A stretch of 41,295 nucleotides of DNA from positions 1-41,295 of IMG/VR virus record IMGVR_UViG_3300005563_000057; one strand, written 5' to 3'. The position numbers and the translations under genes are program-made. This stretch comes from a virus. Below the pieces are notes generated by a model that was given only the letters and a program-made list of their open reading frames with translations, made no database searches and was not told the DNA's origin. Of this stretch, positions 17,472 through 27,955 are shown one piece after another (the first letter of the stretch is position 1; each line of letters opens with the position of its first letter).

Positions 17472-19658
17472 ATGAAGTTCCCAATCCTGTACCATACCGC
17501 GAAAACCGGAGCCACCCATCAGTGGGAGGTTGAATCCATTGGCGACCAAATTGTAGTCAAGCATGGGCAGGTTGGAGGGGTACAAACGACTGCAACCACG
17601 GTCGCTACCCCGAAGAACATTGGCAGGTCCAATGAAACCACAGGATCGCAGCAAGCCGAAATCGAGGCTGCTGCCCTCCACAAGTACAAGCTGGACCGTA
17701 CCTACAGCCTGACTCCATCGGAGGCCAAGGACGTGGTTTTGCTGCCCATGTTGGCCCATCCAATGGCAAAGTATGAGCACAAGATTACCTACCCTGTTTC
17801 AGTGCAGCCCAAGTTGGATGGTTGCTTTACCTACCACTCATCAATTGTGACCGAAAACGGCCATCAGCCAATCGGTAAAATTGTCGAGGAAAAGATACCC
17901 TGCAAGGTGCTGTCCTGGAACGAGGATAATGGGGTGTTTGAGTTTAAATGCGTTCTCAACTATTTTAACAATGGGGCCGCGCCGCAGGACGATTGGTGTG
18001 AGATCAAACTAGAGAATAACCGGCGAATTAAGACGACATGGAACCATCAATTTCTCACAAACAAGGGGTGGGTAAAAGCGCGGGATCTCAACGCCGATGA
18101 ACACAGGATTGCGTCGAACACCGCAGACTCAAGGGTGATGGGCCTACTGATGGGTACCCTGTTGGGAGACGCCAATTTATCTTTTGATAAACGCCACAAG
18201 GATATATCCCCTAGATTGACGTTCGGCCACGCCTCAAGGGAATTGCTCGAACACAAAGTTAAGGTGATGGGCATTGCGGGAAACATCTCTGAAGAAACAT
18301 CTGGGTACGGCAGCAAAATATACCGCTTCTGCTCCTCAAATCACATCGACGCAAACCTCGATGTTTTTTACCACACGTCCCCGAGTTCCGCAAAGTGGGG
18401 AACTCGCCGCCCGGTTACACAGGCCATGCTGCACAATTATCTGAGCCGTGAGGGACTATCGCTTTGGATTGCCGATGACGGGACTTTGCGTAGCAACAAC
18501 GGAAACAAAGAGACACCAATCCTTCAAATTGCTACTCATTCTCAATCTGACGAGGAAGTAAAGGAAATCGTGGGCTACTTTACTTCATCCTGGGGAGTAA
18601 CCCCTACGCCTATCAAGGATAAGCGGGTCGAAACGGGAGGTGGTTGGTTTCTGAATTTTAAGACATCAGACACCGTTCTTCTTCTCAGCCGTTTAAGAGA
18701 GGTTGTTTGGGAAGGCGCAGAATACAAATTCTTCTTTCGTCCCGAAGCATACGTTCAGCCTACTGTCGATGTACTCACATACCAGTTGTTCAAAATTCAT
18801 CGGTGCCGTAAGTCTCTACCGATCACAAAGTATGACATTGAGGTAGAGGGTAATCACAATTACGTGGTTAATGGGGTAATTGCACATAATTGCCGGGCGC
18901 TCGCAAGGTGGAATCCAGAAGGCACGAAGGTCATCCTGACTTCACGCGGCGGCAAGGAATGGAAAGTCACCCAGCACATCAACGAGGCGCTGGAAGCCAT
19001 TCTGCCCAAGGACGCTGTGTTTGATGGCGAGATTTACCTACACGGCAAGACGTTCCAGTGGATCACAGCCAGGACCAAGAAGAAACAGTCTGGGACCGAG
19101 TTGCTTGAGTACCATGTCTACGATATGCCGGAAGTCGGTGGGCAGGATGACTTGCCGTGGCAAGAGCGGATGGTGGCTCTCTACGGCGTGTACAACACGG
19201 TTGGTTGGGCGGGTTCAATCACGCCGGTCAAGGCCGTCCCCACATCCGGGGCAGGGACGCCACAAGTCGTCAAGGCATTGCACGACCAGTACATCAAGGA
19301 CGGCTACGAAGGTGCAATCGTCCGCACCCTGGACGGCTTGTACGAATATGGGTTCCGTTCACAGGGGTTACTCAAGCTCAAGCAGTTCGATGACGCTGAG
19401 TTTACCATCGTGGGGTACAAGAGCGGAGAAGGCATCGAATCGGATCTTGTCATCTGGCGTTGCAAGAATGACGTAAACGATTTGGAGTTCGACACCCGCC
19501 CCAAGGGAACCCATGACGACCGAAAGAAGCTGCTCTTGAACGCTACTACATTTTATGGGCAGAAACTTCGGGTCAAATACTTCGGGCGTTGTGATGGTAC
19601 GGATTTGCCAAGGTTCCCAATCGGGGAAGGCGTGAGACTACCGGAGGACATGGATTGA
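17472..19658 (+). CDS. ATP-dependent DNA ligase precursor with intein, 728 aa
   Basis: ATG 17472; the leader carries GAAAGAGG. The N-terminal 60 residues (HQWEVESIGDQIVVKHG, QVGGVQTTATT) look like a WGR-type domain. The nucleotidyltransferase domain begins near residue 105, with motif I KLDG (Lys114 the adenylated lysine). The intein follows at Cys118 and the extein resumes with CRALARW. Later motifs: VFDGEIYLHG, DGYEGAIVR and LLKLKQF (motif V lysines), then an OB-fold domain (FTIVGYKSGEG to the end). After splicing the ligase is 372 aa, a normal small phage ligase. It seals nicks in replication or recombination. The stop overlaps the next ATG. Confidence 0.92.
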   Translation: MKFPILYHTAKTGATHQWEVESIGDQIVVKHGQVGGVQTTATTVATPKNIGRSNETTGSQQAEIEAAALHKYKLDRTYSLTPSEAKDVVLLPMLAHPMAKYEHKITYPVSVQPKLDGCFTYHSSIVTENGHQPIGKIVEEKIPCKVLSWNEDNGVFEFKCVLNYFNNGAAPQDDWCEIKLENNRRIKTTWNHQFLTNKGWVKARDLNADEHRIASNTADSRVMGLLMGTLLGDANLSFDKRHKDISPRLTFGHASRELLEHKVKVMGIAGNISEETSGYGSKIYRFCSSNHIDANLDVFYHTSPSSAKWGTRRPVTQAMLHNYLSREGLSLWIADDGTLRSNNGNKETPILQIATHSQSDEEVKEIVGYFTSSWGVTPTPIKDKRVETGGGWFLNFKTSDTVLLLSRLREVVWEGAEYKFFFRPEAYVQPTVDVLTYQLFKIHRCRKSLPITKYDIEVEGNHNYVVNGVIAHNCRALARWNPEGTKVILTSRGGKEWKVTQHINEALEAILPKDAVFDGEIYLHGKTFQWITARTKKKQSGTELLEYHVYDMPEVGGQDDLPWQERMVALYGVYNTVGWAGSITPVKAVPTSGAGTPQVVKALHDQYIKDGYEGAIVRTLDGLYEYGFRSQGLLKLKQFDDAEFTIVGYKSGEGIESDLVIWRCKNDVNDLEFDTRPKGTHDDRKKLLLNATTFYGQKLRVKYFGRCDGTDLPRFPIGEGVRLPEDMD
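17823..18890 (+). mobile_element. Intein with LAGLIDADG homing endonuclease in DNA ligase, 356 aa
   Basis: Begins at Cys118 (CFTYHSSIV), ends with VIAHN and is followed by Cys474 as +1 nucleophile, so all splice-junction residues are present. Block B is TWNHQF (T-x2-H); block F/G is YDIEVEGNHNYVV ... IAHN. The endonuclease has two LAGLIDADG-type helices, GLLMGTLLGDAN and LSLWIADDGTL, both keeping an acidic residue. The insertion separates motif I KLDG from the rest of the catalytic domain. The DNA looks more AT-rich than the flanks, which would fit a recent arrival, though I have not computed this. Confidence 0.9.
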
Positions 19659-22416: not shown

Positions 22417-23530
22417 TGCAGCGCGTGCAAAGGCGAAGGCCAAGCAGGAAGAGTTGGAAGCGGACCCGGATTATGTAGCGCCTGTTGTTGAAGGCGACAA
22501 GCATAAGTTGGTGGAAGCGGCCATCAAGTCCATTAAGAAGGATGGGGGCTGTGCGTTTGAGCGGATGAAGGACAAGTCCAAGGAACTGCACCCGGTTCTA
22601 CCCACTGGGATATTTGGGCTTGACCATCACATCATCGGGTCCGGTGGATTCCCTCGCGGGAAGATTGTTGAGTTGTTTGGTGCCCCAAGCGCGGGCAAAG
22701 GCACGCTCCTGTCCCAGTTGATCGCCAATACGCAGAAGGTGAACCCAAGCGCGGACATTGCTTACGTAGATGCGGAGGCGGCGTTTGACCACAGCTACGC
22801 GGCTGCTCTTGGAGTAGACACGGACAATCTGCTGATTGCAGAGCCAAATTATGGAGAGCAGGCGTTGCAAGCTGCCCTAGATGTTATAGAGACGGGCGGG
22901 ATGACCCTAGTTGTCATTGACTCCGTGGCCGCGCTAGTGCCCCGCGCAGAACTCGAAGGAGAGATCGAAGACGCCCACATGGGGCTTCAGGCACGCATGA
23001 TTGGTAAGGCGTTGCGCAAGATGACTGGGATTGCCAGCAAGACGGGAACCTGTGTGGTGTTTGTCAACCAGTTGCGGGCGACCATGAACGCATCCTTCGG
23101 CCCCAAGTCGGATACGCCCGGTGGGAGGGCACTCAAGTTTTACTCCAGTGTGCGCCTGAGCGTAGACAGGATTCAGCAGTACAAGGAGAAGGACAAAGAA
23201 GTTGGCAGTGTGACCAAGGTTCAGGCCAAGAAGAATAAGACCTTTCGACCCTTCCTGGAAATGGACATGAACCTCATGTTTGCAGAGCCGGGGCAGCAGC
23301 CGGGGTTTGACAGCACAATGAGCCTCGTGGATCTCGCTATCAAGCATGGTATCTGGGTCAAGGATGGCAGCAAGTACGTGTTGGTGTCTACGGGCGAGTT
23401 GGTTATGGGTAAGGTCAATCTGCGGGATGGGTTGAATGATAACAAGAACTTGAAGAAGATCACGGCTGAAGCAACCCTAGTGGCTATGAACAAGACTCCT
23501 GGATATATCAAGAGGGCGCTGCGTGGGTAA
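22406..23530 (+). CDS. recA: RecA recombinase, 374 aa
   Basis: GTG 22406 has GAGGAG upstream. RecA order is complete: LPTGIFGLDHHIIGSGGFPRG, Walker A GAPSAGKGT (Lys98), YVDAEAAFDHSYA, LVVIDSVAAL (Walker B) with VPRAELEGEIEDAHMG following, FVNQLRATMN and PGGRALKFYSSVRL. The Walker A Thr after the lysine is Gly99 followed by Thr100, where bacterial RecA usually has GKTT. An N-terminal Lys/Ala-rich helix and a longer C-terminal part differ from host RecA. It catalyses strand exchange in phage recombination or recombination-dependent replication. It overlaps the next gene by 8 bp. Confidence 0.93.
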   Translation: MASNAARAKAKAKQEELEADPDYVAPVVEGDKHKLVEAAIKSIKKDGGCAFERMKDKSKELHPVLPTGIFGLDHHIIGSGGFPRGKIVELFGAPSAGKGTLLSQLIANTQKVNPSADIAYVDAEAAFDHSYAAALGVDTDNLLIAEPNYGEQALQAALDVIETGGMTLVVIDSVAALVPRAELEGEIEDAHMGLQARMIGKALRKMTGIASKTGTCVVFVNQLRATMNASFGPKSDTPGGRALKFYSSVRLSVDRIQQYKEKDKEVGSVTKVQAKKNKTFRPFLEMDMNLMFAEPGQQPGFDSTMSLVDLAIKHGIWVKDGSKYVLVSTGELVMGKVNLRDGLNDNKNLKKITAEATLVAMNKTPGYIKRALRG

Positions 23531-24152
23531 GAGACTGAGACTAATTGTTGGTTGTGAGTACAGTGGCAGGGTGCGGCAGGCGTTCAGAGAGAGAGGACAC
23601 GACGCTTGGAGTTGTGACTTCCTACCATCTGAAGACAATAGCCCGTTCCACATTCAGGGGGATGTACTAGAGCACCTTGACGACGACTGGGATATGGGAA
23701 TTTTCCACCCAACCTGCACATACAACAACCTTGCGGGAATTCAGTGGATGTACCATCCCAAGGATTCTCACTTGCTACCCGAGGAACGCAGGAGGCACCC
23801 AAAGTACCCCAACCGGATGATTGACTTCAAAAGGGAGACTGAATTCTTCCTCAAGTTGAAGAACTGCAAGATTCCGAAGACGTGTATTGAGAACTCCCAG
23901 CCTCACGGATTGGCAATGTCGGTGGTTGGTAAGTATACCCAGAAGGTGCAGCCGTGGATGTTTGGTGACCCATTCAAGAAGGGCGCTTGCCTGTGGTTGA
24001 AGAATCTGCCCAAGTTGGCGGCTACGGCCATTGTGCCGGTGCATCTGCGGAAAGCTGAGTGTCACTTGGCATCACCTGGTCCCAACCGCTGGAAAGAGCG
24101 GAGCAGGACTTATGAAGGAATTGCTACTGCGTTTGCTACACAGTGGGCTTAA
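23523..24152 (+). CDS. Cytosine-C5 DNA methyltransferase-like protein, 209 aa
   Basis: GTG 23523 starts inside the end of recA. The N-terminus IVGCEYSGRVRQAF, followed by GHDAWSCD, is the AdoMet-binding start seen in phage cytosine methyltransferase-like proteins. Motif IV is HPTCTYNNL, where the catalytic Cys follows Thr rather than Pro. Motif VI appears as CIENSQPHG. QPWMFGDPFKKGACLWLKNL is a family-typical stretch. At 209 aa it lacks the usual target-recognition domain. It may methylate or otherwise modify cytosine, or be a divergent relative. Its stop is the TAA of a recurrent element. Confidence 0.75.
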   Translation: MGKRLRLIVGCEYSGRVRQAFRERGHDAWSCDFLPSEDNSPFHIQGDVLEHLDDDWDMGIFHPTCTYNNLAGIQWMYHPKDSHLLPEERRRHPKYPNRMIDFKRETEFFLKLKNCKIPKTCIENSQPHGLAMSVVGKYTQKVQPWMFGDPFKKGACLWLKNLPKLAATAIVPVHLRKAECHLASPGPNRWKERSRTYEGIATAFATQWA

Positions 24153-24159
24153 CCGATAG
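24150..24159 (+). promoter_or_regulatory. TAACCGATAC element, variant TAACCGATAG
   Basis: Nine of ten bases match. The TAA is the stop of the methyltransferase-like gene, and the element ends 20 nt before the proposed ATT start of the Ntn hydrolase. Confidence 0.5.
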
Positions 24160-24179
24160 TACATAGCGAAGGAGACATT

Positions 24180-24728
24180 ATTACCTGCATAGTCGGCTGT
24201 GTCAAAGACGGTGTAGTAACGATTGGTGCAGACTCCCTGGGAGTTGCAGGGCTGTCCAAAACTACCCGCAATGATGTCAAGGTGTTCCATCGCGGCCCTT
24301 TCGTGATTGGGTTTACTTCTTCCTTCAGGATGGGGCAGGTATTGCAGTACAGCCTCAAGACCCCGCACCACCCTGACGGCATGGATGACCACGAATACAT
24401 GGTGACACTGTTTGTAGACAGTGTGAGGGAGTGCTTCAAGGCTGCTGGTATCGCACGCAAGGCGGATGACATTGAAAGCTGTGGCAGTTTCCTAGTCGGT
24501 TATAGGGGCAAACTGTACCACGTAGAAAGTGACTACCAAGTAGGCGAGAGTGTTGACGCCTATAGTGCGGTTGGTTGTGGTACAGACCTTGCATTGGGCA
24601 GCATGTACACAACTGAATGGGACGACCGCACGGCGGAAAGCAGGATCACGATTGCCCTTGACGCAGCCTCAAACTTTTCAGCCGGGGTAGGCGGTCCCTA
24701 CCATTTTGTATCCTCGGAGGATAAATGA
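24180..24728 (+). CDS. Proteasome-beta/HslV-like Ntn hydrolase, ATT start, 182 aa
   Basis: The frame opens at a TAA (24150) and holds no ATG, GTG or TTG before the conserved domain begins. GAAGGAG (24168-24174) is 5 nt before ATT 24180, the likely initiator; ATT 24177 is too close. The next codon is Thr. Counting that Thr as 1, Asp is residue 17 (in GADS) and Lys is residue 33 (in VKVF), exactly the catalytic spacing of proteasome beta subunits and HslV. Later FVIGFTSSFRMGQ, FLVGYRGKLYHV and AVGCGTDLALGSM follow the HslV order. Removal of the initiator would expose the Thr nucleophile. No HslU-like ATPase is nearby, so substrate and partner are unknown. An ATG at 24282 would cut off the active site. 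Confidence 0.85.
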   Translation: MTCIVGCVKDGVVTIGADSLGVAGLSKTTRNDVKVFHRGPFVIGFTSSFRMGQVLQYSLKTPHHPDGMDDHEYMVTLFVDSVRECFKAAGIARKADDIESCGSFLVGYRGKLYHVESDYQVGESVDAYSAVGCGTDLALGSMYTTEWDDRTAESRITIALDAASNFSAGVGGPYHFVSSEDK

Positions 24729-24952
24729 TTCACATACACATCCCCTTTAGCTTATCAGCAGAAACAATCTTCCTGATTCGCGCAGGTATCCTAGCGGTTT
24801 CTACCGCAGTGCTTGCAGTCAGGTGGAACCGCTGGACAATTCGCAGGATGCTCAAGGAGGAATTCGTTCGCCAACTCTTTCTGATGGAGATGGGAACCGT
24901 GCCTGAGAAGTACAGGGAGCGTAACAAAAAGTGGTGGAGGAGAGGCCAGTGA
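24725..24952 (+). CDS. Membrane-anchored basic protein, 75 aa
   Basis: ATG 24725 overlaps the Ntn hydrolase stop, within a GGAGGATAAATG leader. One hydrophobic span (IFLIRAGILAVSTAVLAV) is followed by an amphipathic basic tail (KYRERNKKWWRRGQ) that would face the cytoplasm. No family recognised. The coupled start suggests expression with the Ntn hydrolase. Confidence 0.65.
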   Translation: MIHIHIPFSLSAETIFLIRAGILAVSTAVLAVRWNRWTIRRMLKEEFVRQLFLMEMGTVPEKYRERNKKWWRRGQ

Positions 24953-25086
24953 ACCCCAAGATCCTGCCCACAGTCATGGTAGTGCTGTCTGTCCTTGCTT
25001 CCGCGTGCTACTTCTACACCAAAGACGTTAGGCACGGTATCTACTGGCTTGCGTCTGCCGTACTCATTGCGTCCGTTACGTACTGA
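24949..25086 (+). CDS. Small membrane protein, 45 aa
   Basis: GTG 24949 in a GTGA overlap, with GGAGAGG upstream. Two hydrophobic spans (LPTVMVVLSVLASACYFY and IYWLASAVLIASVTY) separated by a basic turn (TKDVRHG). Size and topology resemble a class II holin, but lysozyme is 4.3 kb downstream and nothing else supports that. Confidence 0.6.
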   Translation: MNPKILPTVMVVLSVLASACYFYTKDVRHGIYWLASAVLIASVTY

Positions 25087-25120
25087 AACCCTTACCCCAT
25101 ACATAGATAGGAATACAGAT

Positions 25121-27955
25121 TTGAATTGGTCTAACTTAGGCAAGATTGTCTTTCGTAGGACATACAGCCGCGTGCAGGGTGATGGAACAAACGAGTCGCT
25201 TAGGCAAGCGGCAGAGCGGGTCATTGCAGGAAATGTCAAAGGATTGAATGTACCGGAATCTGAGCAGAAGGAACTCCTGCGGCTGCTCATGGAGAACAAG
25301 GCCGGTCCCGCTGGAAGGGGATGGTGGTTTTCAGGAGCGGAAGCACAAGACAAGATTGGTGGGGCTGCATTAAACAACTGCTGGTACCTCAATGCAGCAG
25401 AGTGGCAGAACTACATCATCGCCCAAGACCTCTTGATGCTGGGTGGCGGGGTGGGCCTGAGTGTCGAACACAGGTTTGTGAGCAAGCTGCCCAAGATTAA
25501 AAAGGGCGTTGTCATTGTTCACAAGTTGACGAAGGACGCTGACTTCATCGTACCGGATAGCCGCGAAGGGTGGAACGAACTCATCTACCGTGTGCTTGAA
25601 TCTTACTTCGTTACCGGCAAGGGGTTCACGTACTCCACGATTTGTGTGCGCGGAGCAGGGGAAGCCATTGTTGGGTTCGGCGGTGTGTCATCCGGTCCCT
25701 TGGACCTCACCAAACTCGTAGCAACCTTGGGGACAATTCTGAACCCTCGTGGTGGTAAGAGTGTACGACCCCTGGATGCTGCCGACATCATCTGTGCTAT
25801 CGGGGAGATGGTAGTGTCTGGGAACGTCAGGCGCTCTGCCATCCTGATTCTTGGGGATGCTTGGGACAAGGATTACCTCAAGGCCAAGCGTTGGGATCTC
25901 GGCGTACTGCCTTCTTATCGAGGCAAAGCCAACTTCTCAGTCGTGTGCGACGACATTGATGACGTTCACCCGTTGTTCTGGAAGACATACGAAGAAGGCG
26001 AACCATTCGGCATCCTTAACCGTAGCAACATACAGAAGTATGGTCGCATGGGAGAACTCAAGGCAGACAAGGCGGAAGGGGCAAATCCTTGTCAGCCAGC
26101 ATGGGCTACCGTGCTCACTCCTGAAGGTATCCGGCAGTTCAAAGATATTGACGCGGGAAGCACGATCTGGTCTGGTAGCAAGTGGACAAAGGTTGTAAAG
26201 AAGTGGAGCACGGGGCAGAAGCCGGTTCGCGCCTTTGCAACCAGAGCGGGCACCTTTTATGGGACTGGTAATCATAAGGTTGTCAGCAATGGGGCCAAGG
26301 TTGAAGCCTATGACGCGGTGACTATTGATACCGTCCAGGGTCCAAGTAGATTCTCCCTTAACCGATATGCCATGGACGTTATGGACGGATTGGTTATCGG
26401 TGATGGGACTGTCCACGAGGCATCAGGTAACTTGGTCGGCCTTGATATTGGTGTGAATGATGGGGATTACCACACGAGTGAGATACGTACCTTGATTGGC
26501 CGTGCGCGTCCAGGCGTGAGTGAACACTTTTGGGAGATTACGACTACGGTTACACACGATGAACTCCCGAGAACATTCCTGCGCGAAGTTCCCGAACGGT
26601 TCAAGCAAGGGGACGAAGCAACTGTTTGTGGGTTCCTGCGTGGTTTGTTCTCTGCCAACGGTTCTATTGCTGGTGGGCGGGTAACGCTGAAGCAGTCAAG
26701 TTTCAAGATGATCGAAGATGTTCAGCAAATGCTCTCGGGAATCGGCATTAGGTCGTATTACACATGCAACAAGGGTAAGGCAGTTAAGTTCTCGAACGGG
26801 ACATACCAGTGTAAGGATTCATTCGACCTCAACATCCTCACCGACCGTGTAGCCTTTGCAGAGCGTATCGGGTTCCTTCAAGGGTACAAGAACGCTGCAC
26901 TCGCTAAGGCCATCGCTTCAGGCCAGCAGATTGAGAAGAAAACACCCAAGAGCAGTTACGAAGTCAAGGAGGTTACATCTCTAGGTGTGCAGGAAGTGTT
27001 CGACATTATGGTTGAGGACGAAGCGCACACGTACTGGACGGGTGGCCTACTTGTTTCCAACTGTGTCGAGGCTACCCTAGAGCATGGCGAACCCTGCAAT
27101 CTAACTGAGCAAGCACTTTGCAACCTGAATGGCCCGCAAGAGTTCTTCGGGGCGAGCCGGTTGATGCACAGGTGGGCAAAGCGGGTAACTATGGCTCGCT
27201 ACCATCACAAGGTGTCTGCCGATGTAGTTGCACGCAATAGGCGCACGGGTGCTGGTATCACGGGCATCTTGAACTCGCCTTTGTACACGCCTGACATCCT
27301 GGATGAAGCCTACAAGCAAATCCAGATGGAGGACATTGCATACTCTGCACAGTTGGGGGTTCCTCTTAGTGTTCGCACTACAGTAGTCAAGCCGAGCGGC
27401 ACACGTTCCAAGGTCATGGATTGTGGGGGCTACGAAGGCGCACACGCGCCCCTGAGCCGCTACATGATCCAGCGGATTAGGTTTGCTGCTAGTGACTCGC
27501 TGGTACCCCTCCTGAGAGCCGCAGGACACCATGTAGAGTTTGACATCAAACTAGACGGCAAGAGGGATCACAGCACGGTCGTAGCTGAGTTCTACGTTGC
27601 TGCCCCTGTGGGTTATCCAGTTGTGGACGAAGGCTGGGATACCTGGAAGCAGTTGGATACCTTGAAGCTGCTGCAAAAGCATTGGGCAGACCAAGCCGTG
27701 TCGGTCACGGTTTACTACAAGAAGGAAGAGATCCCGCAGATTAGGGCATGGCTGGCTGACAACCTGCAATACATCAAGTCCATTAGCTTCCTGCTGGAGA
27801 CAGGACACGGGTTCAAACTCGCACCCAAGGAAGCCATCACCCGTGAAGAGTATGACCGCCTAAGCAAAAATATCAAGCCCATTGCTCTGGATGATATATC
27901 GGATGGAGAGATGGAAAGCCAGGAGTGCGCGGGAGGGTTATGCCCAATCAAGTAA
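25121..27955 (+). CDS. nrdJ: Class II (adenosylcobalamin) ribonucleotide reductase precursor with intein, 944 aa
   Basis: TTG 25121 is preceded by AGGAATACAGAT, the same leader as the TTG gene at 9593; an open stretch upstream to 24995 overlaps two other genes. Cys87 (NNCWYLNA) matches substrate-reducing Cys119 of the Lactobacillus leichmannii enzyme. After splicing the active loop reads N-P-C-V-E, with the Cys as the thiyl-radical residue, and the second redox Cys follows 11 residues later (GEPCNL), as C408/C419 there. The C-terminal pair C936/C941 (CAGGLC) matches C731/C736. The spliced enzyme is 620 aa against 739, so a compact form. It makes deoxynucleotides without oxygen or a second subunit, using cobalamin from the host. 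No thioredoxin gene is seen. Confidence 0.92.
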   Translation: MNWSNLGKIVFRRTYSRVQGDGTNESLRQAAERVIAGNVKGLNVPESEQKELLRLLMENKAGPAGRGWWFSGAEAQDKIGGAALNNCWYLNAAEWQNYIIAQDLLMLGGGVGLSVEHRFVSKLPKIKKGVVIVHKLTKDADFIVPDSREGWNELIYRVLESYFVTGKGFTYSTICVRGAGEAIVGFGGVSSGPLDLTKLVATLGTILNPRGGKSVRPLDAADIICAIGEMVVSGNVRRSAILILGDAWDKDYLKAKRWDLGVLPSYRGKANFSVVCDDIDDVHPLFWKTYEEGEPFGILNRSNIQKYGRMGELKADKAEGANPCQPAWATVLTPEGIRQFKDIDAGSTIWSGSKWTKVVKKWSTGQKPVRAFATRAGTFYGTGNHKVVSNGAKVEAYDAVTIDTVQGPSRFSLNRYAMDVMDGLVIGDGTVHEASGNLVGLDIGVNDGDYHTSEIRTLIGRARPGVSEHFWEITTTVTHDELPRTFLREVPERFKQGDEATVCGFLRGLFSANGSIAGGRVTLKQSSFKMIEDVQQMLSGIGIRSYYTCNKGKAVKFSNGTYQCKDSFDLNILTDRVAFAERIGFLQGYKNAALAKAIASGQQIEKKTPKSSYEVKEVTSLGVQEVFDIMVEDEAHTYWTGGLLVSNCVEATLEHGEPCNLTEQALCNLNGPQEFFGASRLMHRWAKRVTMARYHHKVSADVVARNRRTGAGITGILNSPLYTPDILDEAYKQIQMEDIAYSAQLGVPLSVRTTVVKPSGTRSKVMDCGGYEGAHAPLSRYMIQRIRFAASDSLVPLLRAAGHHVEFDIKLDGKRDHSTVVAEFYVAAPVGYPVVDEGWDTWKQLDTLKLLQKHWADQAVSVTVYYKKEEIPQIRAWLADNLQYIKSISFLLETGHGFKLAPKEAITREEYDRLSKNIKPIALDDISDGEMESQECAGGLCPIK
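26090..27061 (+). mobile_element. Intein with degenerate LAGLIDADG domain in ribonucleotide reductase, 324 aa
   Basis: Begins at Cys324 of the precursor (CQPAWATVLTPEG), has GTGNHKVV as block B, ends with GGLLVSN and is followed by Cys as +1 residue. That +1 Cys is the reductase's radical cysteine, so the enzyme cannot work before splicing. The endonuclease region has MDGLVIGDGTV as first motif, with the Asp kept, and GLFSANGSI as second, where the usual Asp is Asn. Loss of one metal ligand suggests the homing enzyme is dead or weak. Splicing residues look intact. Base composition resembles the flanks, which fits long residence. Confidence 0.9.

Follow-up and report, generated by a model that had tools for sequence, protein, structure and literature searches.

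A probable noncanonical start codon at a proteasome-like gene

The locus described here raises the question of whether a phage gene for a proteasome-like Ntn hydrolase is translated from an ATT codon. The window, by which we mean the whole 41,295-nucleotide stretch that was analysed (IMG/VR record IMGVR_UViG_3300005563_000057), contains a plus-strand frame at 24150-24728 that begins after a TAA codon (24150-24152) and closes at a TGA codon (24726-24728). The codons following the TAA are CCG ATA GTA CAT AGC GAA GGA GAC ATT ATT ACC TGC, in which the two ATT codons are at 24177 and 24180 and the ACC codon for Thr is at 24183; the translation of 24150-24728 reads PIVHSEGDI-I-TCIVGCVKDGVVTIGADSLG.... 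The initial annotation had found no ATG, GTG or TTG between the upstream TAA and the conserved domain, and this was borne out. The first such in-frame codon is GTG 24282, which is residue 34 when the Thr at 24183 is counted as 1, and a start at this position would drop Thr1, Asp17 and Lys33. As had also been noted, a Shine-Dalgarno (SD) sequence, GAAGGAG (24168-24174, plus strand), lies 5 nt (ACATT) before ATT 24180, and the Thr codon comes next. The gene defined by this ATT (24180-24182) extends from 24180 to 24728 and encodes 181 amino acids after the initiator.

The predicted duplex between the SD sequence and the anti-SD has a free energy of -8.8 kcal/mol, which ranks 40th among 160 relatives and is stronger than the family mean of -7.1. 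A scan for SD sequences followed by an ATT, ATC, ATA or CTG codon that opens a long NTG-free frame gave three sites, and of these 24180 alone lies in a frame matching a known family. No special RNA structure was found at the start codon, where folding was ordinary (z = 0.24), and a search for a phage initiator tRNA or a known leader RNA found neither. An AUU start at 24180 does not require a dedicated RNA fold or a tRNA from the phage.

The protein is a group I proteasome-like homolog

Over its residues 1-180, the window protein matched the profile of PHROG 1040, the 'peptidase HslV family', with E = 1.1e-22. Searches of Pfam, NCBIfam and, directly, PDB sequences with the single Ntn protein found no family, and PF00227, the Pfam proteasome/HslV model, gave no hit for the window protein and matched 6 of 54 relatives weakly. 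A profile of these 54 relatives weakly found HslV, BPH (beta-proteobacteria proteasome homolog) and proteasome beta chains, all aligned from residue 1. Structure prediction had been proposed earlier as a check for an Ntn/proteasome fold. The AlphaFold2 model derived from the 54-relative alignment had a pLDDT of 94.8 and a pTM of 0.90, and a Foldseek search with this model gave BPH (5ovt) as the best solved match (E = 4e-13, TM 0.82), followed by HslV (TM about 0.7) and proteasome subunits. The E values for BPH, HslV and the proteasome were about 1e-8 or better, which identifies a proteasome-type fold, and matches to phage proteins reached a TM of 0.96.

Counting the Thr as residue 1 places Asp and Lys at positions 17 and 33, as first proposed, and these residues are conserved. 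Thr1 (24183-24185), the predicted N-terminal nucleophile, is present in all 72 distinct IMG/VR proteins, and it is invariant in both family alignments (A1 and A2), as are the catalytic-site residues Asp17 (24231-24233) and Lys33 (24279-24281). HslV (ClpQ) has the same fold and the same Thr1/Asp17/Lys33 spacing, but its identity to the window protein is only about 14-18% and there is no HslU in the window. BPH (PDB 5ovs/5ovt/5ovu) shares the N-terminal Thr and is 22-23% identical, but it belongs to a different family and is host-encoded. Thus, the initial description as a proteasome-beta/HslV-like Ntn hydrolase held for the fold and the spacing, whereas HslV proper was rejected in favor of a separate, published group I proteasome-like family of phages and bacteria.

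Relatives were present in 204 phage records, 328 IMG/VR stretches and 196 stretches of bacterial genomes, the bacteria including Azospirillum, Rhizobium, Frankia, Streptomyces and Paenibacillus. AAH and PPH are proteasome-like homologs described by Fuchs et al. 2021, with AAH in group I (PMC8665760). The taxa of our relatives, these five genera and phages among them, fit the published range of AAH. We conclude that the window protein is a group I homolog, a family already published in phages and bacteria, and that the group I member is probably AAH; this likeness is one of taxonomic range and not of direct sequence comparison, and the start codon of the window gene differs. PPH, which is about 140 residues long and lacks the second helix H2 (PMC8665760), was rejected, as the window protein is 181 residues long and its model contains both helices (48-57 and 69-88). 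In the tree the window protein formed a long branch (1.11) of uncertain position. In a separate observation, one viral contig (L159:999-4763) carries three proteasome-like Ntn genes, two of them in tandem and each starting ATG-Thr-Cys, which are possibly subunits of one hetero-oligomer.

Relatives place the initiator at 24180

It had been suggested that the starts of relatives be aligned to see whether they map to the same codon. We determined the codon preceding the Thr in loci that were picked by internal motifs or profile, irrespective of their start. This codon was ATG (63), GTG (9) or TTG (7) in 79 other IMG/VR loci and ATG (63), GTG (19) or TTG (2) in 84 loci of bacterial genomes. Since an NTG codon occupied the homologous position in all 163 other loci (139 distinct proteins), 24180 is an initiator position and not an internal codon. 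An N-terminal extension in relatives, which would put the Thr inside the protein and had been named as the observation that would count against this reading, was rejected because the relatives have none and start exactly at the codon before the Thr. ATT at this position was found in the window phage only.

The named phages of PHROG 1040, including Moorella phage MTATph1, Geobacillus virus E3 and Psychrobacter phage D'Alembert, belong to the same family (44-54% identity) and share with the window protein both the catalytic triad and a beginning made up of a start codon, Thr and Cys. The codon directly before their Thr is ATG, TTG or GTG, whereas that of the window phage is ATT. MTATph1 is the nearest named relative (54%) and has TTG. 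We observed that the start annotated for the MTATph1 homolog (OR602862.1, L005:3998-4555; locus 4040) falls 42 nt into the gene. By homology the start is TTG 3998, so Thr1 and the residues that follow it are missing from the annotated MTATph1 protein.

Two ways in which the ATT could be misleading were considered. One is that ribosomes enter the frame elsewhere, by readthrough of TAA 24150 from the upstream methyltransferase gene, by a frameshift, or by initiation at the first ATT (24177). The methyltransferase and Ntn frames are identical and the ATT is doubled, as this reading would require, but TAA readthrough has no support in the window, the SD spacing to 24177 is merely 2 nt, and each of the three routes would yield a protein in which the Thr is internal or preceded by one residue, whereas relatives begin exactly at the codon before it. 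We regard this as the least probable of the readings considered. The other is that the true codon is ATG and became ATT through a mistake in sequencing or assembly. The presence of NTG in all relatives could be taken in this way, but a substitution error that reached the consensus at this base alone is unlikely, and another IMG/VR contig (3300025949_000086) is identical to the window over 25,099 bp, the ATT included. As this contig has no SNPs and could derive from the same site or reads, it speaks against a single assembly mistake more strongly than it proves independent sampling. An error thus appears very improbable.

A weakly translated gene or a recently silenced one

E. coli infC is an AUU-start gene. 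Like the window gene, infC, E. coli pcnB and S. aureus cvfC1 combine an AUU start with a good SD sequence, and the output of those genes is low; they differ in being cellular genes, and the AUU conservation shown for cvfC1 has no counterpart here, as AUU was conserved in 0 of the 163 other loci. The AUU start of cvfC1, which has a strong SD sequence, gives about 10% of the output of the AUG version, and the AUU start of pcnB and autoregulation by IF3 are cited in the same study (PMC13009471). Noncanonical starts are lowered by excess IF3 (PMC2268962); for the window gene, the sensing of IF3 suggested in the initial annotation would be speculative. The initial annotation was right that ATT starts are rare but had given infC as the known case, to which pcnB and cvfC1 must be added (PMC13009471).

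The principal alternative is that the start codon was lost recently (ATG to ATT) in one phage population and that the gene is functionally off, either as a newly formed pseudogene or as an allele with strongly reduced output. The ATT is one substitution from ATG and is unique among 140 distinct proteins, and the first in-frame NTG, GTG 24282, would not restore the catalytic residues. On the other hand, the frame and all of the catalytic residues are intact, the strong SD sequence is retained at 5 nt, and AUU with a strong SD sequence does initiate in bacteria (PMC13009471). Of the 53 positions with conservation of 90% or more across the other family members, the window protein also keeps 50; its three near-invariant differences (A19L, L53V and F173Y) are conservative, and 17 of 139 family members deviate more at near-invariant positions. 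Judged by its sequence, the protein does not look decayed, although a very recent loss would still be compatible with this; one G-to-T substitution could have switched it off with too little time for decay to follow. We consider such a loss unlikely.

Other members with an ATH start were sought in viral contigs by scanning for an SD sequence, ATH and T-C-I; among the 39 stretches obtained, only the same phage belonged to the family. In a search for close relatives by the Ntn and RecA proteins no phage was nearer than the identical contig, and a DNA-level search of 50,697 phage records gave nothing near the window. Because no other Ntn relative exceeds about 59% identity and the ATT is confined to a single known phage lineage, retention of the ATT over time is conjectural.

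An antisense promoter-like site overlaps the ATT

A sigma-70-like site (TTGACA-17-AATAAT, 11/12 to the sigma-70 consensus) is present on the minus strand at 24177-24205, over the ATT start, such that its -10 hexamer is the complement of ATTATT. The window has no other site of this kind, and 0.03 would be expected. No relative has the site, none scoring above 9/12 at that place. Since ATG would give the antisense site the same score, the site by itself does not explain the ATT. This promoter-like sequence was noticed post hoc and serves only as a lead. The thought that a single 29-bp stretch might throttle the Thr1 protease at two levels, with an AUU start that depends on IF3 level or the ribosome state and an antisense promoter over that start codon, the enzyme being switched with host growth or lysogeny, strikes us as quite improbable.

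Gene neighborhood and the search for a partner

The upstream gene (23523-24152, plus strand) matches PHROG 757 'DNA methyltransferase' (E = 3.8e-46) and ends 27 nt before ATT 24180. The small downstream gene (24725-24952, plus strand) overlaps the Ntn stop codon by 4 nt (ATGA), and its GGAGG SD sequence is inside the Ntn frame; an overlap of this type is typical of a translated operon. The genes of the window include those for ParB, exonuclease, helicase, primase-helicase, ligase, endonuclease VII, nucleotide phosphatase, RecA, methyltransferase, ribonucleotide reductase, acyltransferase and integrase. As the window ORFs scanned included no terminase, portal or capsid gene, the 41-kb window is probably a fragment. 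Two genes of this stretch contain insertions. The ATP-dependent DNA ligase gene (17472-19658) has an intein carrying a LAGLIDADG endonuclease, and the ribonucleotide reductase gene (24995-27955; likely start TTG 25121) has a LAGLIDADG insert that is probably a second intein of the same phage.

HslV pairs with HslU, an AAA+ unfoldase that is usually encoded beside it. The initial annotation saw no HslU-like partner, and for the 41-kb fragment this stands, since no HslU/ClpX-like AAA+ unfoldase was present among the large ORFs scanned. HslU was also absent among the commonest neighbors of the relatives. The 125 proteins adjoining the IMG/VR relatives included 11 of the large-terminase family, 10 of the portal family, 7 NAD-dependent DNA ligases and one ClpP. 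The terminase, portal and ligase matches indicate that the neighborhood is not fixed: the surroundings are head and packaging genes in many relatives, and DNA and nucleotide metabolism in others and in the window phage. Viral proteasome-like genes (L180-L258) often adjoin terminase, portal or head-morphogenesis genes, hinting at a link to head assembly.

Model and implications

The likely explanation, in our judgment, is an intact phage gene for a proteasome-like Ntn hydrolase, situated in a DNA and nucleotide metabolism module and weakly translated from AUU 24180. Weak AUU expression is the best reading because AUU starts are known to work, as in cvfC1 (PMC13009471). According to this model, 30S subunits would bind the AAGGAG SD sequence, perhaps aided by ribosomes that have ended translation of the methyltransferase gene. 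fMet-tRNA would pair imperfectly with AUU and, by analogy with the published AUU cases, output would be low, around a tenth of that from AUG or less; the Ntn enzyme is probably made only in small amounts. By general rules, deformylase and Met aminopeptidase would strip the fMet since Thr follows, thereby exposing Thr1 at the N terminus, and the position of the start codon supports this prediction. Thr1, together with Lys33 and Asp17, would then attack a peptide or amide bond of some substrate, with the enzyme working by itself or as an assembly of identical subunits, and with no HslU of its own. These data would suit a Thr hydrolase that stands alone or self-assembles and whose substrate is on the phage side, such as a head or metabolic protein.

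The enzyme family is known from phages and bacteria; what is unusual is the ATT start, which is so far private to one phage. Common gene callers take ATG, GTG and TTG only, and a gene of this type is called from an internal codon, with all of its catalytic residues lost from the annotation. Start positions fixed by homology provide a way to detect noncanonical starts from sequence alone. If the AUU start is real, it would add a phage example to the low-output starts of infC, pcnB and cvfC1, and it would sit on an enzyme that is possibly harmful when overproduced.
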